Shown: piece after piece, positions 11,851 to 48,144 of the stretch | How positions within the stretch are numbered: the first letter of the stretch is position 1 | Layout: each line of letters begins with the position of its first letter | Assembly (NCBI RefSeq): GCF_013464915.1 | Contig: NZ_RAVT01000006.1 | Location: 32,716 to 80,859, forward strand | Origin: Stenotrophomonas maltophilia | GTDB taxonomy: Bacteria > Pseudomonadota > Gammaproteobacteria > Xanthomonadales > Xanthomonadaceae | Direction: 5' to 3' | Length of the DNA: 48,144 nt | Program-made: the position numbers and the translations under genes | Notes under the pieces: generated by a model | Told to the model about the DNA's origin: nothing | The model's database searches: none | The model's input: only the letters and a program-made list of their open reading frames with translations

Positions 11851-12206
11851 CAGTTTCCCGTGGCTGTTGGAACGACATCCTGCTTTGGTGGGTGTCGACC
11901 TTGGTCGACACGGCGGACGTCATGAACGTCTGAAGGATCGGTTTTTGATTTTCTGATCTTTCCCGTGGTGGCGCGGGAAACTGTCCGTTGCCGGGTAAAC
12001 CCGTCCATGGGGCTCGATGGCGCCATCCATGGCGCCAACGGTCCTGCAGGCCCACACCGCCCCGCCCCCGACAGGTTCACGCGGCTGTTGGTAGGTGTCG
12101 ACCTTGGTCGACACGGACAGACATCCGGAATGTCTGAAGGATTGGCTTTTGATTTTGATTTTTCTGATCTTTGCCGTGGTGGTGGCCGCATGCAGGGAAC
12201 TGTCAG
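11851..12206. repeat. Two diverged direct repeats of about 140 bases
   Basis: Copy A (about 11851-11993) and copy B (about 12072-12206) share, in order, a GGCTGTTGG segment, the palindrome GTGTCGACCTTGGTCGACAC (11892-11911 and 12095-12114), a GTCTGAAGGAT segment, a TTTTGATTTTCTGATCTTT-like T-rich stretch, and a CCGTGGTGG...GGGAACTGTC end. In copy B the palindrome is preceded by GTAG (12091), making it a SMAG; in copy A the head is GTGG. Confidence 0.8.
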
Positions 12207-12247
12207 GGGCCGGGTGGGTAGGCGGGGCGGGGGTGTCCGCGGCATGG

Positions 12248-12322
12248 GCCCGAGGCATGCCTCGGGCGGGTTGGGCAGGACGCCCAACCCAGGCCTTGCC
12301 GTGTGCGCAGGACAGCGCACAC
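12248..12322. repeat. Three consecutive hairpins upstream of queF
   Basis: A perfect 20-base palindrome at 12248-12267 (GCCCGAGGCATGCCTCGGGC), a stem of nine bases with loop AGGAC at 12268-12290, and a stem of eight bases with loop AGGACA at 12301-12322. The last two share an AGGAC loop. None is followed by a T run, so they are not classical terminators. Confidence 0.75.
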
Positions 12323-12498
12323 GAGCAAGCCGCGGCCAAGCCCCCAGGGACGGGTTTACGGCGTCCCCCGACCCGCCTGCCCACCCGGCCAAGCCGATAG
12401 ACCGCCTTCCACGTCCAACCAACAAAACCACCACGAAGGGGCTCCGCCGTTGGCCGGCCTGGCCGAAGGCCGGCCCTCCGCGCGATACAATGCCCACC

Positions 12499-13317
12499 AT
12501 GAACACCCCACAGGATTCCAGCCTCGGTCGCGAGGTCAGTTACCCGTCGCAGTACGATTCCGGCCTGCTGTTTCCCATCCCCCGCAGTGGCGCCCGCGCC
12601 GAGATCGGCCTGGATGACGCCGCGCTGCCATTCGTCGGCCACGACCGCTGGCATGCCTTCGAGCTGAGCTGGCTCGACCCGCGCGGCAAGCCGCAGGTGG
12701 CCGTGGCCACCGTGCAGGTGCCGTGCACATCGCCGCGGTTGATCGAATCGAAGTCGTTCAAGCTGTACCTCAACTCCCTCAACAGCACCCGCATCGATAG
12801 CGCCGAGGCACTGCGCGCGCGCATCGTGGCGGATCTGTCGGATTGCGCCGGTGCGCCGGTCCAGGTCGAGTTCGGCCTGCCGGGCCTGCGCGAGACGCCG
12901 CTCGGCGAGTCCATCGATGGGCTTGAACTGGAGATCGACTGCTACGGCCCGCCGCAGGCGGACTTCCTCTCGGCCGATGCCGGTGAGGTGGTGGAGGAGA
13001 CCCTGGTTTCGGCACTGCTGAAGTCCAACTGCCCGGTCACCGGCCAACCGGACTGGGCCACGGTCAGCCTGCGTTACCGCGGGCCGAAGATCGATCGTGC
13101 AGGCCTGCTGCGCTATCTGGTCAGCTACCGCGAACACGCCGAGTTCCACGAGCAGTGCGTTGAGCGGATCTTCAGCGAGGTGTCTGCGCGTTGCCAGCCG
13201 CAATGGCTGGAAGTGGAAGCCCGCTACACCCGCCGTGGTGGCCTGGACATCAACCCGTGGCGCGCCAGCCCCGGCATCGCCGCCCCGGCCGCGACCTACC
13301 GCGAACTGCGCCAGTAA
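12499..13317 (+). CDS. queF: NADPH-dependent 7-cyano-7-deazaguanine reductase
   Basis: Reduces preQ0 to preQ1, a late step in synthesis of the tRNA-modified base queuosine. At 272 residues it is the long, two-domain (YqcD/E. coli) QueF type. The catalytic Cys is Cys178 in [13 protein letters not shown], with the partner Asp at 185, and the substrate-binding segment [16 protein letters not shown] follows. The N-terminal tunnel-fold half carries [21 protein letters not shown] place the start at 12499 ([10 protein letters not shown]); an in-frame ATG nine bases earlier is possible. It stands alone between the repeat island and a SMAG pair. Confidence 0.95.
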
Positions 13318-13336
13318 CCGCCGCAGGCGGTTACGG

Positions 13337-13414
13337 GTAGTGCCGGCCGCTGGCCGGCAACCGCAAGGAACCCGCGTCCAGGGCGAGGGCAAGCCGGCCA
13401 GCGGCCGGCACTAC
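13337..13414. repeat. Facing pair of SMAG palindromes after queF
   Basis: GTAG-headed palindromes with GCCGGCC arms at 13337-13361 (plus) and 13391-13414 (minus). They are mirror images separated by 29 bases and can pair with each other, forming a BIME-like structure at the 3' end of queF. Confidence 0.85.
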
Positions 13415-13536
13415 CGGGCGCCGGCTCTCCCGATTGTTCAGCCGCCCCCCGGGGTGGCTTCACATCTGCACCATCCCCATTTAACAACCTCCATGGCACC
13501 GTGCGAACCACGTAGTCATGCAGACGGGAGTTGTGG

Positions 13537-13830
13537 ATGAGTACCGAGAAGAAAGCCGATTTCTCCGGCGTCAGTGCCAGCGTCGACAGTACCGCCGAGC
13601 AGGTGCCGAAGGCGGACTTCTCCGGCGTCAGCGCTTCGGTGGACAGTACCGCCGAGATCGTCAGCGGCGGCACCTACACCGTGCAGAAGGGCGACTCGCT
13701 GTCGAAGATCGCCAAGCAGCATCTGGGCGACGCCAACGCCTGGAAGAAGATCTTCGAAGCCAACCGCGATGTGCTCGACGACCCGGACAAGATTTTCCCG
13801 GGCCAGACCCTGAAGCTGCCGCCGAAGTAA
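13537..13830 (+). CDS. Small LysM-domain protein with duplicated N-terminal motif
   Basis: A 97-residue protein with one LysM peptidoglycan-binding domain at about residues 45-95 (YTVQKGDSLSKIAKQHLGD...FPGQTLKLP). It has no signal peptide, like the cytoplasmic YgaU/Kbp proteins, whose C-terminal half this domain resembles. The BON domain of that family is missing. In its place is a 19-residue motif repeated back to back (KADFSGVSASVDSTAE at 6-21 and 25-40). The start at 13537 is supported by GGGAG six bases upstream. It is followed 45 bases later by a lipoprotein gene, probably in the same transcript. The role is unknown; a general-stress or K+-sensing function would be an analogy only. Confidence 0.85.
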   Translation: MSTEKKADFSGVSASVDSTAEQVPKADFSGVSASVDSTAEIVSGGTYTVQKGDSLSKIAKQHLGDANAWKKIFEANRDVLDDPDKIFPGQTLKLPPK

Positions 13831-13875
13831 GCCGGCGATCGAACGCCGTCCGACAATCCCTGGGAGGAACCCCGA

Positions 13876-14388
13876 ATGATCAAGACCACCCCGCTCCAGA
13901 CCGCCCTGATCGCCGCCCTGCTGGGCAGCGTCGCCCTGGTCGGTTGCAAGAAGAAGGAAGAGTCGACCGACACCAACGCCGCTCCGGCGGCCACGGCTCC
14001 GGCCGAGCCGGCGGCACCGGCGCCGATGACCGGTGCACCTCCGCCGATGGCGGAAGCAGCAGCGGTCAGCGTTTCCACTGTCACCGTGGGCAAGACCGCT
14101 GCGGCTGACAAGTCGGTCGCCCCGGCTGCGCTGTTCTCGCCGAAGGATGACGTCATCGTCTCGGTCAAGACCGATGGCGCCGCCAACAACGTCAATGTGG
14201 GTGCCAAGCTGACCTTCCAGGACGGCCAGGTGGCCGGCGAACAGACCGCGACCCTGAATGCCAGCGGCGCGGAAACCACCAACGTCACGTTCAAGAATGC
14301 AAAGGGCTGGCCGGCCGGCAAGTACCGCGCCGAGGTCATGGTCGATGGCAAGGCGGCCGGAACGCCGCAGGAGTTCGAGGTCAAGTAA
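13876..14388 (+). CDS. Putative lipoprotein of unknown function
   Basis: A 170-residue predicted lipoprotein. The signal peptide ends in a lipobox, LVGC, with the lipid-attachment Cys at 24, followed by a charged KKKEE stretch and an Ala/Pro-rich linker (about 30-60). The C-terminal part (about 65-170) looks like a beta-rich Ig-like fold: alternating short strands, no Cys, and a run including VNVGAKLTFQDGQVAGEQ. GGAGG lies ten bases before the ATG. The gene ends just before a strong intrinsic terminator. I do not recognise the family; the Lys after Cys is compatible with outer-membrane sorting. Confidence 0.8.
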   Translation: MIKTTPLQTALIAALLGSVALVGCKKKEESTDTNAAPAATAPAEPAAPAPMTGAPPPMAEAAAVSVSTVTVGKTAAADKSVAPAALFSPKDDVIVSVKTDGAANNVNVGAKLTFQDGQVAGEQTATLNASGAETTNVTFKNAKGWPAGKYRAEVMVDGKAAGTPQEFEVK

Positions 14389-14422
14389 GTCCTGCCGACT
14401 CTCTCCCGGCAGGACTCACGAT

Positions 14423-42245: not shown

Positions 42246-42863
42246 ATGTCGATCTATGCATTGAAAGGACGTTTCCAGGACCTGTTGCGTCCAGCCGTAC
42301 GCGGTCTGTACCGCATGGGGATCACCGCCAATACGGTGACCGTGGCCGCCGCCGTGGTCTCGCTGCTGGTGGCTGCCGTCGTGTGGTGCTGCGCGCCGGC
42401 CCAGCCCCTGCTGTACCTGCTGCTGCCGCTATGGATGCTGCTGCGCATGGCGCTCAACGCCGTGGATGGCATGCTGGCCCGCGAGTTCGGCCAGCAGTCG
42501 CGGCTGGGCGCCTATCTGAACGAGCTGTGTGATGTGATCGCCGATGCGGCGCTGTACCTGAGCCTGCTCAGCGTGCCGGGCGTGCGCCCGGAGGCGCTGT
42601 GGCTGCTGGCCTGGACTGCGGCGCTGAGCGAATACGCCGGCGTGCTGGGGCTGATGGTCGGGGCCAGCCGTCGCTATGACGGCCCGATGGGGAAGAGCGA
42701 CCGGGCGTTCGTCATCGGTGCGCTGGGCCTGCTGCTGGCGTTTGGCTGGAGCGGTGCGATGACGGTCAGCGGCGTGGCCGCAGCGATGGCGGTGCTGTGC
42801 GTGCTGACGATGATCAACCGCGTCCGTCGCGGGCTGCAGGAAGCGGCGGTTTCGCCGAATTAA
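42246..42863 (+). CDS. YnbA-like CDP-alcohol phosphatidyltransferase with altered metal motif
   Basis: First gene of a six-gene lipid operon. 205 residues, about five or six membrane segments. The family normally has D-x2-DG-x2-AR-x8-G-x3-D-x3-D; here it reads N-x2-DG-x2-AR-x8-G-x3-N-x3-D (NAVDGMLAREFGQQSRLGAY followed by LNELCD). The first and third Asp are Asn, so the two-metal site differs from PgsA, PssA or PIS enzymes. The rest of the motif, including DG and AR, is intact, so a CDP-DAG-dependent transfer remains likely. As I recall, E. coli YnbA has the same Asn changes, which would make this a family trait and not damage. The alcohol acceptor is unknown. Confidence 0.87.
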   Translation: MSIYALKGRFQDLLRPAVRGLYRMGITANTVTVAAAVVSLLVAAVVWCCAPAQPLLYLLLPLWMLLRMALNAVDGMLAREFGQQSRLGAYLNELCDVIADAALYLSLLSVPGVRPEALWLLAWTAALSEYAGVLGLMVGASRRYDGPMGKSDRAFVIGALGLLLAFGWSGAMTVSGVAAAMAVLCVLTMINRVRRGLQEAAVSPN

Positions 42864-42897
42864 TCAAGCAGATACAAAAAGACAATCAGGAGATTGC

Positions 42898-44649
42898 ATG
42901 CGTCAGGCGCAGGAACGGGAATTCCACAGCTTCGACCAGGTACCGCTGTTCTACCGGTACTGGGCGGGCACCAGCGCAACGCCGGCCAGCAGGGCCATCG
43001 TGCTGCTGCACCGCGGCCACGAGCACTCCGGCCGGGTCACCCACCTGGTCGATGAGCTGGACCTGCCCGACACCGCCTTCTTCGCCTGGGATGCGCGCGG
43101 CAATGGTCGTTCGCCGGGTGCGCGCGGCGATGCACCGGGCTTCCCGGCGCTGGTGCGTGACCTGGACAGCTTCATCACCCATATCGGAGCCGAGCACGGC
43201 ATCGCGGTGGAAGACATCGTGGTGATCGCGCAGAGCGTGGGCGCAGTGGTTGCCGCCACCTGGGTGCACGACTACGCGCCGCGCCTGCGCGCGCTGGTGA
43301 TGGCTTCGCCGGCGTTCAAGGTGAAGCTGTACGTGCCGTTCGCACGCCCGGGCCTGGCATTGATGCAGAAGCTGCGCGGCAACTTCTTCGTCAACAGCTA
43401 CGTCAAGCCGCAGTGGCTGACCCATGATCCGGCGCGCGTGGAGAGCTACCGCACCGATCCGCTGATCACCCGGCCGATCTCGGTGCGCGTGCTGCTGGGC
43501 CTGTACGAAGCGGCTGACCGCATCGTGGCCGATGCGCAGGCAATCAGCGTGCCGGTGCAGCTGCTGGTGTCCGGCTCGGATTTCGTGGTGCACCGTGGCC
43601 CGCAGGACCGCTTCTACGAGCGCCTGTCCAGCCCGATCAAGGAGCGTGTGCATCTGCCGGGCTTCTTCCACGACACGCTGGGCGAGCGCGATCGGGCGCC
43701 GGCGCTGGCACGTATCCGCAGTTTCATCCAGGCACGTTTCGCCGAGCCGCTGCGTGAGCTGTCACGGCGCGACGCGCACCGTCACGGGCCAACCTTCGAG
43801 GAATCGGAGATCCTGGCCTGGCCACCGGAACGCAACAGCCTGGCTGACCTGCGCTGGCGCGTGGTGCGTGGTGGCCTGCGCTTCGGCGGCACGCTGTCCG
43901 AAGGCATCGCGCTGGGCCTGCAGACCGGTTTCGATTCCGGCAGTACGCTCGACTACATCTACCGCGACGAAGCGCGCGGCAAGGGGCCGCTCGGCCGCAT
44001 GGTCGACCGCAATTATCTGGACGCGATCGGCTGGCGCGGCATCCGCATCCGTGGCCAGCACCTGCAGGAACTGCTGCGCGACGCCGCCCAGCGCCTGCGC
44101 GGGCAGGGCACGCAGGTGCGTGTGCTGGACGTGGCGGCCGGCCATGGTCGCTATGTGCTGGAAGCGCTGGGCCAGGGCGAACAGCGCGCCGACCGCATCG
44201 TGCTGCGTGATTTCAGCGATCTGAACGTGACCCAGGGCCAGGCATTGATCGAGCGCCTCGGTGCCGACGACATCGCCTGCTTCGAGCAGGGCGATGCGTT
44301 CGATCCGGCGCAACTGGCCAAAGTCGATCCAGCACCGACACTGGCGGTGGTATCGGGCCTGTACGAACTGTTCCCCGACAACGACGCCGTGCTGCGCTCG
44401 CTGCAGGGCATTGCCGCAACCGTGCCGGTGGGGGGCTATCTGGCTTACACCGGCCAGCCCTGGCACCCGCAGCTGGAATTCATCGCACGTGCCTTGACCA
44501 GCCACCGCGGTGGCGCAGCATGGGTGATGCGCCGCCGTACCCAGCAGGAGATGGATGAGCTGGTGCGCCTGGCCGGTTTCGAGAAGGTGGCGCAGCGCAT
44601 CGACGAATTCGGCATCTTCACCGTGTCGCTGGCACGCCGGGCCGCGTGA
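42898..44649 (+). CDS. YnbC-like alpha/beta-hydrolase and SAM-methyltransferase fusion
   Basis: 583 residues, two enzymes in one chain. Residues 1-280 are an alpha/beta-hydrolase of the lysophospholipase/monoacylglycerol-lipase type (LLHRGHEHSGRVTHLVDEL; nucleophile S113 in IAQSVGA; late His in GFFHDT). After a linker, residues about 370-583 form a class I SAM-dependent methyltransferase, with the SAM-binding VLDVAAGHGRYVLEAL (about 409-424) and an FSDLNV acidic turn. This architecture matches E. coli YnbC. AGGAG lies five bases before the ATG, giving the best ribosome site in the operon. Expected role: trimming acyl groups and methylating a head group; the substrate is unknown. It lies 34 bases after the first gene. 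Confidence 0.9.
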   Translation: MRQAQEREFHSFDQVPLFYRYWAGTSATPASRAIVLLHRGHEHSGRVTHLVDELDLPDTAFFAWDARGNGRSPGARGDAPGFPALVRDLDSFITHIGAEHGIAVEDIVVIAQSVGAVVAATWVHDYAPRLRALVMASPAFKVKLYVPFARPGLALMQKLRGNFFVNSYVKPQWLTHDPARVESYRTDPLITRPISVRVLLGLYEAADRIVADAQAISVPVQLLVSGSDFVVHRGPQDRFYERLSSPIKERVHLPGFFHDTLGERDRAPALARIRSFIQARFAEPLRELSRRDAHRHGPTFEESEILAWPPERNSLADLRWRVVRGGLRFGGTLSEGIALGLQTGFDSGSTLDYIYRDEARGKGPLGRMVDRNYLDAIGWRGIRIRGQHLQELLRDAAQRLRGQGTQVRVLDVAAGHGRYVLEALGQGEQRADRIVLRDFSDLNVTQGQALIERLGADDIACFEQGDAFDPAQLAKVDPAPTLAVVSGLYELFPDNDAVLRSLQGIAATVPVGGYLAYTGQPWHPQLEFIARALTSHRGGAAWVMRRRTQQEMDELVRLAGFEKVAQRIDEFGIFTVSLARRAA

Positions 44650-45977
44650 TGGCGACGCTGGCCGCAACGCCGCTGGCCACGGAAGGACGCCCCTGGCGGC
44701 GCGCCCTGCTGTGGCTGGCCCTGCTGGGTCCGTTCTTCTTCGCCAGCTACGGCTTCGCCAACTGGATGGCCGGCCGGCATGCCGAACTGCCGGTGATGGC
44801 GTTCGCGTGGGAGACGCACATTCCGTTCGTGCCGTGGACGATCGTGCCGTACTGGTCGATCGACCTGTTCTACGCGGTATCCTTCTTCCTGTGCCGGCAA
44901 CGGCTGGAACTGGACCGGCATGCGCTGCGGCTGTTCAGTGCACAGCTGATCGCGGTGACCTGCTTCCTGTTGTGGCCGCTGCGCTTCAGCTTCGAGCGGC
45001 CGGAGATCGGTGGCGTGTTCGGTGGGTTGTTTGATGTGCTGCTGGGCTTCGACAAGCCGTTCAACCAGGCGCCGTCGCTGCACATCGTGCTGCTGATCGT
45101 GCTGTGGATGAAGTTCGCGCAGTACCTGCACGGCGTGTGGCGCTGGGTGCTGCACGCGTGGGCATTGCTGATAGGCGTCTCGGTGCTGACCACGTTCCAG
45201 CATCATTTCATCGATATTCCGACCGGCCTGCTGGCGGGGTGGCTGTGCGTCTGGCTGTGGCCGGAGCAGGGCGCGCCGCCGCTGCGCGCCTGGCGCATCG
45301 CGCGTGATGCCAGACGTTGGCGATTGGCGGCGTTGTACCTGCTGGGGGCGGCGCTGCTGCTGGCGCCGGCGGTGACGCTGCGCGGTGCGGCGTTGTGGCT
45401 GCTGTGGCCGGTGGTGTCGTTGCTGCTGGTGGCGTTGGCCTATGCCGGGCTGGGTACGGCGGTGTTCCAGAAACGCGCCGATGGTCGCTTGACGATGGCC
45501 GCGCGCTGGCTGCTGGCACCGTACCTGGGCGCTGCCTGGATCAACTCGCGGCTGTGGACGCGGCGTGCGCCGCAGCCGGTGCCGGTGCTGGACGGTGTGT
45601 GGCTGGGCCGCATTCCCAACGGCGCGTTGCCACCGCCACTGGTGGGTGTAGTGGATGCCTGCGCCGAGCTGTCCTGTTGCGCGCAGGGCGCAGCGTATGC
45701 CAGCGTGCCGATGCTGGACCTGGTGGTGCCTGCTCCGGAACAGCTGCGCGAGGCGGCCGAGGCCATCGAGTGCCTGCGTGCGCAGGGGCCGTTGCTGGTG
45801 TGCTGTGCGCTGGGCTACTCGCGCAGTGCTGCCAGCGTGGCGACCTGGCTGCTGCGCAGTGGTCGCGCGGCTGATGTCGATGCGGCGGTGGCGATCGTGC
45901 GTTCCGCGCGCCCTGGCATCGTGCTGGGTACGGCCCATCTGCGTGCCATCGCCGACGCGGCAGGAGCGCGCACATGA
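44649..45977 (+). CDS. YnbD-like PAP2 phosphatase and dual-specificity phosphatase fusion
   Basis: 442 residues. The N-terminal 275 are a PAP2-type membrane phosphatase with PSLH (142-145) and HHFIDIPTG (185-193; catalytic His and Asp). The C-terminal part (about 315-442) is a dual-specificity/tyrosine-phosphatase domain: VVDACAE start, then the P-loop C386-ALGYS-R392. The residue before the catalytic Cys is Cys, not the usual His. This resembles PTPMT1, the eukaryotic phosphatidylglycerophosphate phosphatase, which also has a lipid substrate. The same fusion defines E. coli YnbD. The ATG overlaps the stop of the previous gene (TGATG); a GTG three bases earlier is also possible. Expected to remove phosphate from the product of the transferase. 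Confidence 0.9.
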   Translation: MATLAATPLATEGRPWRRALLWLALLGPFFFASYGFANWMAGRHAELPVMAFAWETHIPFVPWTIVPYWSIDLFYAVSFFLCRQRLELDRHALRLFSAQLIAVTCFLLWPLRFSFERPEIGGVFGGLFDVLLGFDKPFNQAPSLHIVLLIVLWMKFAQYLHGVWRWVLHAWALLIGVSVLTTFQHHFIDIPTGLLAGWLCVWLWPEQGAPPLRAWRIARDARRWRLAALYLLGAALLLAPAVTLRGAALWLLWPVVSLLLVALAYAGLGTAVFQKRADGRLTMAARWLLAPYLGAAWINSRLWTRRAPQPVPVLDGVWLGRIPNGALPPPLVGVVDACAELSCCAQGAAYASVPMLDLVVPAPEQLREAAEAIECLRAQGPLLVCCALGYSRSAASVATWLLRSGRAADVDAAVAIVRSARPGIVLGTAHLRAIADAAGART

Positions 45978-46411
45978 GTACGGTTCCCGATCTGGCGACC
46001 ATGCAGCTGCTGCTGCGGCAGGGGCGTTGGCCGGCATGCCTGTCGCTGGGGCTGCTGCTGGTGGCATTGCTGCTGCTCGGCACCGAGCCGGGCCTGGCGA
46101 TGATCGCTGCAGGGTTGTTGCTGGCCAGCACGTTCGCGGGCGTGGCACAGACGTACCACGCGTGGCGGGTGGCGCTGGACGCCAGCCTGCTGCAGCTGCT
46201 GCGCGATGAGAGCCTGGACGGCGATGCTGCCGCGCGCCGCACCGATCAGCTGCTGCAGGACAGTGGCCTGCGCCGCGCGTCACCCGATGCGCAACTGCGG
46301 GGCTGGGACGCGCGCTGGGCCGGCATGCGCCGCCTGCTGCTGCGCCAGTACCTGCTGACCGCGGTGCAGTTCGCACTGCTGGTGCTGGCCGTGTTGTGGC
46401 CGCAGACGTGA
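45974..46411 (+). CDS. Small membrane protein of unknown function in the lipid operon
   Basis: 145 residues with three likely membrane segments (about 20-36, 38-58 and 122-142) and a charged soluble loop (about 75-115) carrying DESLDGDAAARRTDQLL. I know no family for it and E. coli ynbABCD has, as I recall, no counterpart. ATGA overlap with the phosphatase gene shows translational coupling. It could be a subunit that organises the membrane enzymes. Confidence 0.82.
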   Translation: MSTVPDLATMQLLLRQGRWPACLSLGLLLVALLLLGTEPGLAMIAAGLLLASTFAGVAQTYHAWRVALDASLLQLLRDESLDGDAAARRTDQLLQDSGLRRASPDAQLRGWDARWAGMRRLLLRQYLLTAVQFALLVLAVLWPQT

Positions 46412-46424
46412 ACGGGAGGGGCCA

Positions 46425-47054
46425 ATGTTCGCCGAACTGATTGCCCGCGCCTGCAGTGGCGCGATCCATGTGGTGACAGGCGCACGCGCGCTGTGGATCG
46501 GTTGCGCGCCGTCCAGCGAGCGCCGCGTGTACTACGGCAACCACGCCAGCCACGGTGACTTCGTGCTGATCTGGTCGTCGATGCCACCCGCGTTGCGGCG
46601 CCAGGTGCGGCCGGTTGCCGCCGCCGAGTACTGGCAGCGCGACGGCCTGCGTCGCTACCTGATCGATGCGGTGTTCAATGGCGTACTGGTCGAACGCGAG
46701 GCCGGCCATCGCCAGCAGGATCCGCTGCAGGTGCTGCGTGACGCGGTGGACGAAGACTGCTCGCTGATCCTGTTCCCGGAAGGCACCCGCAACGTGGGCG
46801 ATGAGCCGTTGCTGCCGTTCAAGAGCGGCATCTATCACCTGGCACGGCAACGCCCGGAGCTGGAATTCGTACCGGTGTGGATCGACAACCTGAAGCGGGT
46901 GATGCCCAAGGGCCGCTTCCTGCCGCTGCCCTTGCTGTGCACGGCCACCTTCGGCACGCCGCTGCGGTTGCAGGCCGACGAGGACAAGGCCGCATTCCTG
47001 GCCCGCAGCCGGCAGGCGCTGCTGGACCTGGCGCCGAACGGAGGGCGCGCATGA
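46425..47054 (+). CDS. PlsC-type 1-acyl-glycerol-phosphate acyltransferase
   Basis: 209 residues, a PlsC/LPAAT-family acyltransferase that adds a fatty acid to a lyso-lipid. The catalytic HX4D is H40-ASHG-D45 in YGNHASHGD, and the FPEGTR motif (117-122) binds the substrate phosphate. It lacks the long N-terminal membrane region of some relatives. It would supply phosphatidate-like lipid to the next gene's product. A GGGAGGGG stretch lies just before the ATG, 13 bases after the previous stop codon. Confidence 0.9.
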   Translation: MFAELIARACSGAIHVVTGARALWIGCAPSSERRVYYGNHASHGDFVLIWSSMPPALRRQVRPVAAAEYWQRDGLRRYLIDAVFNGVLVEREAGHRQQDPLQVLRDAVDEDCSLILFPEGTRNVGDEPLLPFKSGIYHLARQRPELEFVPVWIDNLKRVMPKGRFLPLPLLCTATFGTPLRLQADEDKAAFLARSRQALLDLAPNGGRA

Positions 47055-48046
47055 GTTTCCTGATCGATGTGTCCGGCGACCTGGCAACGCAGAGCGTGGG
47101 CCAGCAGACCGGCCTGCTGTTCGCTGGCGTCGGTGCGGTGCTGGTACTGGCCACGCTGGTGGCCGAAACGCTGCGATGGCGCCAGCGCGGCCGGCCCAGC
47201 GCGGTGATCGCCAACCTGGTGTCGCGCATCCGCGCGTGGTGGGTGATGGCGATCGTGGTCGGATTGGCGCTGTTCTTCGGTCGTGCCGGGGTGATCGTGC
47301 TGTTCGCGATCATCTCGCTGTTCGCACTGCGCGAGTTCATCACGCTCGCACCGACCCGCTCGGGCGACTACTACGCGCTGCTGGCGGCGTTCTACATCGT
47401 GCTGCCGTGGCAGTACTACCTGGTGTGGATCGACTGGTACGGCATGTACACGTTGCTGATTCCGGTCTATGCGTTCCTGTTCCTGCCGATCCTGTCGACC
47501 ATCGGCGGCGACACCACGCACTACCTGGAGCGCACGGCGAAGGTGCAGTGGGGACTGATGATCTGCGTGTTCTGCATCTCGCACGTACCGCTGCTGCTGA
47601 ACCTGCACGTGCCCGGACATGACCCGTCGCGCAACGTGCTGCTGTTTGCCTTCCTGGTGATCGTGGTGCAGTCCTCGGACGTGCTGCAGTACATCTGGGG
47701 CAAACTGCTGGGCAAGCATCTGATCGCACCGAAGCTGTCGCCATCTAAGACGGTGGAGGGCTTCGTCGGCGGCGTGCTGAGTGCCAGCGCGCTGGGCGCG
47801 GCGCTGTGGTGGATCACCCCGTTCACGCCGCTGCAGGCGTTCGGCCTGTCGCTGCTGATCAACCTGATGGGGTTCTGGGGCGGCCTGGTGATGTCGGCGA
47901 TCAAGCGCGACCGCGGCATCAAGGACTGGGGCCACATGATCGAGGGCCATGGCGGCATGCTCGACCGGCTGGATTCGGTGTGCTTCGCCGCGCCGGTGTT
48001 CTTCCACGTGGTGCGGTATTACTGGAAGGCGGGCGGGGGCGGGTGA
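47051..48046 (+). CDS. CdsA-type phosphatidate cytidylyltransferase
   Basis: Makes CDP-diacylglycerol from phosphatidate and CTP. 331 residues, about eight membrane segments. The CDS signature appears as SAIKRDRGIKD, then GHGGMLDRLDS near the C-terminus (about 282-306); the usual Pro before GHGG is Glu (IEGHGG). Similar to E. coli YnbB and distinct from a housekeeping CdsA, which would be encoded elsewhere. ATGA overlap with the acyltransferase gene. It ends in four glycines, and its last 18 bases with the following SMAG are duplicated downstream. Confidence 0.92.
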   Translation: MSFLIDVSGDLATQSVGQQTGLLFAGVGAVLVLATLVAETLRWRQRGRPSAVIANLVSRIRAWWVMAIVVGLALFFGRAGVIVLFAIISLFALREFITLAPTRSGDYYALLAAFYIVLPWQYYLVWIDWYGMYTLLIPVYAFLFLPILSTIGGDTTHYLERTAKVQWGLMICVFCISHVPLLLNLHVPGHDPSRNVLLFAFLVIVVQSSDVLQYIWGKLLGKHLIAPKLSPSKTVEGFVGGVLSASALGAALWWITPFTPLQAFGLSLLINLMGFWGGLVMSAIKRDRGIKDWGHMIEGHGGMLDRLDSVCFAAPVFFHVVRYYWKAGGGG

Positions 48047-48144
48047 TCCTGCCGGGCGTCCATCCACGCATGGCGTGGGTCTACCAGGCGGGCGGGAGCG
48101 GGTGATCCTGCCGGGCGTCCATCCACGCATGGCGTGGATCTACC
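48029..48144. repeat. 59-base tandem repeat of gene end plus SMAG
   Basis: The cdsA 3' end (about 18 coding bases, the TGA and its flank) and the SMAG at 48061-48084 are repeated as a second unit at about 48088-48144, with its SMAG at 48120-48143. The period is 59 bases. Both SMAGs are minus-oriented with ATCCACG arms. The array runs off the end of the window. Confidence 0.85.

Follow-up and report, generated by a model that had tools for sequence, protein, structure and literature searches.

A conserved six-gene operon of Stenotrophomonas and its candidate pathway to a minor phospholipid

A 48,144-nucleotide stretch of Stenotrophomonas maltophilia DNA (contig NZ_RAVT01000006.1, positions 32,716 to 80,859; hereafter the window) carries a predicted operon of six genes, which we call A, C, D, S, P and B. 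We propose that this operon is self-contained and directs the synthesis of a minor, specialised phospholipid by way of a transferase homologue with an altered metal site (A) and a phosphorylated acceptor, a reading that we judge to be evenly balanced between right and wrong. In this pathway P would acylate lysophosphatidic acid to phosphatidic acid, B would activate the latter to CDP-diacylglycerol (CDP-DAG), and A would transfer the phosphatidyl group to a phosphorylated acceptor alcohol. D would strip a phosphate from the product or rearrange the head group, while deacylation and methylation, of the product or of a precursor, would fall to the two halves of C. Gene content, gene order, co-occurrence, predicted folds and residue conservation are observed here; the order of the steps, the phosphorylated acceptor and the role of methylation are what we infer.

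The six open reading frames lie on the + strand from 42246 to 48046, all co-directional in our reading of the window, with spacings from A to B of 34, -4, -4, +13 and -4 bases:

A, 42246–42863, + strand, 205 amino acids: YnbA-type CDP-alcohol phosphotransferase homologue (PF01066, 34 bits, cut-off 22)
C, 42898–44649, + strand, 583 amino acids: YnbC-type fusion of an alpha/beta hydrolase and a class I S-adenosylmethionine-dependent methyltransferase (Methyltransf_20) (PF12146, 230 bits; PF12147, 489 bits)
D, 44646–45977, + strand, 443 amino acids: YnbD-type protein joining a degenerate PAP2 membrane domain to a dual-specificity phosphatase with a C-x5-R loop (PF00782 above and PF01569 below cut-off)
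S, 45974–46411, + strand, 145 amino acids: small hydrophobic protein, fast-evolving and conserved in position
P, 46425–47054, + strand, 209 amino acids: PlsC-like acyltransferase (PF01553, 52 bits, and alignment)
B, 47051–48046, + strand, 331 amino acids: YnbB-type CDP-diacylglycerol synthase, a CdsA paralogue (PF01148, 234 bits)

The initial annotation had described one co-directional six-gene set with short overlaps and gaps, which is what we find (4-base overlaps, gaps of 34 and 13), and its PlsC, CdsA-type, CDP-alcohol transferase, PAP2/phosphatase and hydrolase/methyltransferase assignments agree with Pfam, the PAP2 match being below cut-off. The predicted operon and its conservation are thus confirmed at the level of sequence. 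The closed lipid pathway that it had outlined is plausible and partly supported, but its details are corrected here.

Transferase A and its asparagine-type relatives

A has the predicted fold of the CDP-alcohol phosphotransferases and overall homology to them, but not their full signature. This signature, D1xxD2GxxAR...GxxxD3xxxD4, is called absolutely conserved in the accessible part of an earlier report (PMC4634129). In A, D1 is replaced by N71 and D3 by N92, D2 (D74) and D4 (D96) remain aspartate, and two further arginines, R153 and R192, are kept; A differs in its two asparagines from the PIP synthases RsPIPS, MkPIPS and MtPgsA1. Asparagine occupied both positions in 120 of the 120 nearest homologues of A, and likewise in 120 of 120 for a sister group, A', described below (the 110 matches in our survey of the A signature motif include redundant copies). 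Among 31 A sequences, D2, D4, the glycines, the alanine, R79, R153 and R192 were invariant. In a profile alignment R192 aligned directly with R195 of MtPIPS, and in a second alignment R153 was in register with the corresponding arginine of three canonical relatives; the match of R153 rests on its motif and that second alignment. A appears to keep the fold, the aspartates D2 and D4 (the latter the catalytic base) and counterparts of the arginine pair that holds the acceptor phosphate in PIP synthases. Since asparagine replaces D1 and D3, two of the three aspartates that serve as metal ligands, A probably relies on a metal that is weakened, single or different. Neither the Asn-type motif nor a module of A, P and B was described in the papers listed by our searches of an open-access library. 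The Asn-type clade, almost always linked to a CDP-DAG synthase of its own and mostly to an acyltransferase too, is the part of this analysis that is new relative to the initial annotation.

Weaker matches to A led to 29 further loci, of which 19 hold A', nine hold relatives with the canonical aspartates and one (L133) holds a divergent homologue. A' has asparagine at D1 and D3 and has lost the arginine of the 'AR' pair. A P gene and a YnbB-type B gene lay within about 4 kb of A' at 18 of the 19 loci, and both accompanied none of the nine canonical relatives, one of which had a weak B-like match (86 bits) and two of which, L145 and L154, were cut by contig ends. Named Rhizobium, Nitratireductor and Paracoccus plasmids carry annotated A'-P-B trios. 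A search with a single A' query returned 4493 proteins at E values up to 0.001, not sorted into groups, and none of the 120 A' homologues listed among them carried a precomputed Pfam domain. Several trios have a protein of about 130 amino acids, without a Pfam match, between B and A' (L158, 5600–5986; L136, 3556–3951). At one locus only (L129, 4776–7593), an A'-B-P trio adjoins a DUF2931 gene and a gene for a Tle1-like phospholipase of the type VI secretion system, a neighbourhood that makes a link to lipid damage possible.

A further A-like gene, A2, lies between S and P in eight Xanthomonas and Lysobacter loci. Its signature had asparagine at both positions in five of these, asparagine with serine at D3 in two, and gave no hit to the motif search in one. 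Two extra genes stand between S and P there, as in L041 (frames 11962–13707 and 13677–14351) and L095 (frames 12103–13662 and 13616–14419); the first encodes a protein with a glycine-rich end, for which the L041 frame gave no Pfam match, and the second is A2.

In a 61-row tree built from all columns, A, A' and A2 each formed one clade and jointly formed another (support 97/95), in which the A2 rows include two with serine at D3. When the columns of D1, the arginine and D3 were masked, support for the joint clade dropped to 64/87, with the clade present in 65% of bootstraps, and for this reason a single origin of the asparagine substitutions is favoured by the sequences rather than demonstrated. 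A and A' are thus clean clades on their own tree. In a tree of 47 B proteins, by contrast, whose rows overlap those of the A tree without being identical and include a very long Fusobacterium branch, labelling each B by its neighbour, A or A', takes five changes, and well-supported branches force at least four of them. YnbB-type synthases and Asn-type transferases thus seem to have swapped partners yet stayed together, and such exchange with continued pairing is stronger evidence of shared function than the common descent of one operon.

We also considered whether the six-gene operon and the A'-P-B trio exclude each other within the genus. They occurred in 37 and 4 genomes, respectively, and in none together (p 0.02, a value that ignores relatedness); A' itself was seen in two of the four trio genomes (L165 and L166), with the stretch from L167 ending within P and that from G052 not fetched. 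We set this idea aside as weak, and it is weakened further by G103, a genome of the same phylum that has both A and A'.

Gene content of the module and the other enzymes

Co-occurrence in other genomes had been proposed as a check on the operon. We examined 80 loci in named records, the nearest of 578 relatives, a sample that over-represents Pseudomonas and Xanthomonadaceae. The order A-C-D-S-P-B, with extra genes allowed between, was found in 67 of them; B was present in 76, P in 76 and S in 70. The other sets were A-P-B (5), A-C-P-B (2), A-C-D-S (2, both cut by contig ends) and single cases of A-C-D, of P-B divergent from A-C-D-S, of A alone and of A-C-D-P-B. Of 61 genomes of the genus, the same 37 contain A, C and a YnbB-type B, and D was full-length in 36 of these 37; in G057 (contig C8, near 1833344–1833628) D is truncated, matching only model positions 5–98, in an otherwise present operon. 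Across 398 genomes of one phylum, with at most 7 or 5 candidates scored per genome, 37 had a strong A match (>160 bits), and every one of the 27 with C was among them.

The module was found in Rhizobium, Burkholderia, Pseudomonas, Fusobacterium and a cyanobacterium. All six genes occur in rearranged order on Rhizobium and Burkholderia plasmids, and A, B, D and S are annotated on a Shinella plasmid. An E. coli conjugative plasmid carries A-B-P-C, and a Fusobacterium record carries C-A-B without P; this 2.1 Mb record (L168, NZ_CP084075.1) is labelled a plasmid but, judged by its size, is probably the chromosome. The Pseudanabaena plasmid ABRG53d (L169, 6767–9922) has A-B-P with a stand-alone Methyltransf_20 gene, beside nifT, nifZ, nifV, nifK and nifD.

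Homologues of A, B, C and D are encoded by ynbABCD of E. coli (b1408–b1411; 43%, 39%, 55% and 43% identity to the window, respectively), with the same domain fusions, as had been stated in the initial annotation, and with the same asparagine substitutions. The K-12 locus differs in its order, A-B-C-D, and in having neither P nor S. The window operon had been called an expanded relative of ynbABCD, but this appears to be the wrong way round: because six-gene sets dominate and varied smaller or rearranged sets occur, the six-gene form does not appear to be an expanded ynbABCD, and the K-12 operon looks like one of several reduced forms.

PlsC enzymes are marked by HX4D and FPEGTR motifs, and by Pfam and alignment P has both, in NHASHGD and FPEGTR stretches. 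B scores above the PF01148 cut-off and shares the catalytic C-terminal half of CdsA and YnbB synthases in alignment; it differs from them in its genetic tie to an Asn-type transferase and mostly to a PlsC protein as well. With a YnbB profile B scored 534 bits, compared with 99 bits for the other CdsA homologue in the 4.65 Mb assembly (G000:C61), which we take as the housekeeping copy. The best relatives of the hydrolase half of C in the PDB are monoacylglycerol lipases, making it monoglyceride-lipase-like, and PDB matches of the methyltransferase half are weak. In L063 (8410–10448) and L082 (8563–10380) the C gene is broken, either across two frames or at an in-frame stop, through natural loss or sequencing error.

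D shares the C-x5-R loop and fold of PTPMT1 and other dual-specificity phosphatases, which a structure model matched at residues 303–443, and the histidines and aspartate of PAP2 phosphatases, but differs from both in being one fused membrane protein. PAP2 enzymes carry the motifs KX6RP (C1), PSGH (C2) and SRX5HX3D (C3). In the membrane half of D, which reads PSLH...QHHxxD, RP is kept without the C1 lysine, PSLH replaces PSGH and no arginine follows the C3 serine, so that the full PAP2 motif set is absent. The matches listed for the D model all fell on the phosphatase half, leaving the PAP2 half without structural placement, and a sequence profile of that half gave no more than weak matches to four phospholipid-phosphatase chains (best E 0.002). 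Stand-alone homologues of the PAP2-like half occur in some genomes of the genus (L162, 4446–5192; L163, 4202–4933; L164, 4767–5498), with no other module gene in the stretch fetched.

S had no family match in Pfam or NCBIfam. The ratio of non-synonymous to synonymous substitution rates against four relatives was 0.00–0.39 for A, C, D, P and B and 0.21–0.79 for S. Promoter and terminator scans gave nothing above shuffled sequence. Upstream, on the opposite strand, lie purH and purD, named from their translations. A purH match flanks 19 of the 80 loci, all labelled Stenotrophomonas, Xanthomonas or Lysobacter except L018 ([Pseudomonas] hibiscicola) and L023 (Bacillus subtilis, JAHREJ010000016.1). 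The latter, with A 82% and purH 92% identical to the window, is probably a mislabelled or contaminated Stenotrophomonas contig. The two best matches to A carry the names S. geniculata and S. maltophilia. A 59-nucleotide direct repeat, present in two copies at 48027–48144, starts within the last codons of B; its palindrome-like core occurs 122 times forward and 121 times in reverse in the genome with at most two mismatches (reversed control, 0), and the repeat is a repetitive extragenic palindromic (REP)-like element that supplies the end of the B gene. A role in anti-phage defence was rejected, as PADLOC gave no credible match, only a weak one to a methyltransferase (19.6 bits).

The proposed pathway and its alternatives

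Several observations weigh against a phospholipid pathway centred on A. In the accessible text of a study of CEPT1 (PMC10156783), the enzyme lost nearly all activity when D136 (D2 by spacing) or D154 (D3) was replaced by alanine, and A could therefore be inactive as a transferase. R153 lies one residue off R155 of MtPIPS in the profile alignment, R192 is found in only 9 of the 19 A' proteins as aligned (R153 in 19), and the arginine missing from A' is also lost in the Fusobacterium A. The partners are not universal: P is absent from K-12, none of P, B and S is present in the Vibrio locus L078, L087 holds A alone, L131 has A' with neither P nor B, and L133 is a solitary homologue with alanine at D1 and no P or B. 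No outside neighbour that might name the head group recurred across lineages among the 40 largest clusters of non-module open reading frames, which were not annotated singly; nearly all were confined to one lineage (the Pseudomonas or the Xanthomonadaceae set), two having a single outsider (L036 and L090). Finally, deletion of ynbB in E. coli caused no significant change in the glycolipid MPIase, growth or phospholipids, as far as the available portions of two reports go (PMC6362211, PMC7018664).

In the strongest competitor, A would not be a transferase at all but a CDP-DAG-binding or regulatory partner of B, in a module that makes or remodels phosphatidic acid and CDP-DAG, for example in lipid repair after phospholipase attack or envelope stress. 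In its favour, A has other residues at two of its three metal-ligand positions, P and B stay beside A in the most frequent reduced set (A-P-B in 5 of the 80 loci, A'-P-B on plasmids), a trio stands beside the Tle1-like phospholipase gene, and expression of E. coli ynbA is reported to rise in an acid-stress and in an antimicrobial-peptide experiment (PMC12871917, PMC12811501); the gene is also said there to be activated by BglJ-RcsB. Against it, the residues invariant in the 31 A sequences go beyond those that one would expect a mere binding protein to require, the presence of a methyltransferase and a phosphatase as partners points to a product, and the phospholipase neighbour was seen at one locus only. 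We regard this explanation as unlikely.

A reading less probable still makes the operon a stress-induced additional pathway to an ordinary phospholipid, either phosphatidylglycerol through phosphatidylglycerol phosphate (PGP) or phosphatidylinositol. E. coli YnbD failed to rescue mutants in PGP phosphatases or in undecaprenyl pyrophosphate (C55-PP) phosphatases and had no assigned function in 2020, as stated in the accessible part of one study (PMC7413402). The Ino1 inositol-phosphate synthase family (PF07994) had no match in the window genome, nor in an E. coli control genome with a C homologue. Together these two results argue against phosphatidylglycerol and phosphatidylinositol as products, and we judged phosphatidylinositol unlikely on the second. 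In addition, the synthesis of these two lipids has no methyltransferase step. YnbB itself makes CDP-DAG in vitro but does not replace CdsA for bulk phospholipid, in the available text of two papers (PMC6362211, PMC7018664).

A role in making MPIase, in which B, assisted by A in attaching a sugar-1-phosphate to CDP-DAG, would produce a pyrophosphate-linked sugar lipid such as N-acetylglucosamine (GlcNAc)-PP-diacylglycerol, fares marginally worse and seems to us improbable: YnbB overproduction raises MPIase (PMC6362211, PMC7018664, in part), membranes with overproduced or mutant CdsA make GlcNAc-PP-diacylglycerol from phosphatidic acid, CTP and GlcNAc-1-phosphate, with further factors allowed for by the authors (PMC6362211, in part), and A appears to retain counterparts of the phosphate-binding arginine pair, but the ynbB deletion left MPIase without significant change, MPIase holds GlcNAc, ManNAcA and Fuc4NAc whereas the module spans Rhizobium to a cyanobacterium, and a glycosyltransferase stood beside the module once (in Caballeronia), outside the six conserved families.

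Returning to the specialised-phospholipid pathway, we tentatively extend it, with less confidence than in the pathway itself and at less than even odds, to the proposal that YnbA, A' and A2 form one enzyme class without the canonical di-metal site which, with a dedicated CDP-DAG synthase and mostly a dedicated acyltransferase, makes an undescribed phospholipid in at least three phyla, the effect of YnbB on MPIase being a side activity. If this is true, many bacteria, E. coli included, would make a membrane lipid that has yet to be described, by means of a transferase that departs from an active site regarded as invariant. Four orphan E. coli genes would be explained and YnbB would gain a physiological partner. 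The family would also offer a natural test of the need for two metals in the CDP-alcohol phosphotransferase reaction.
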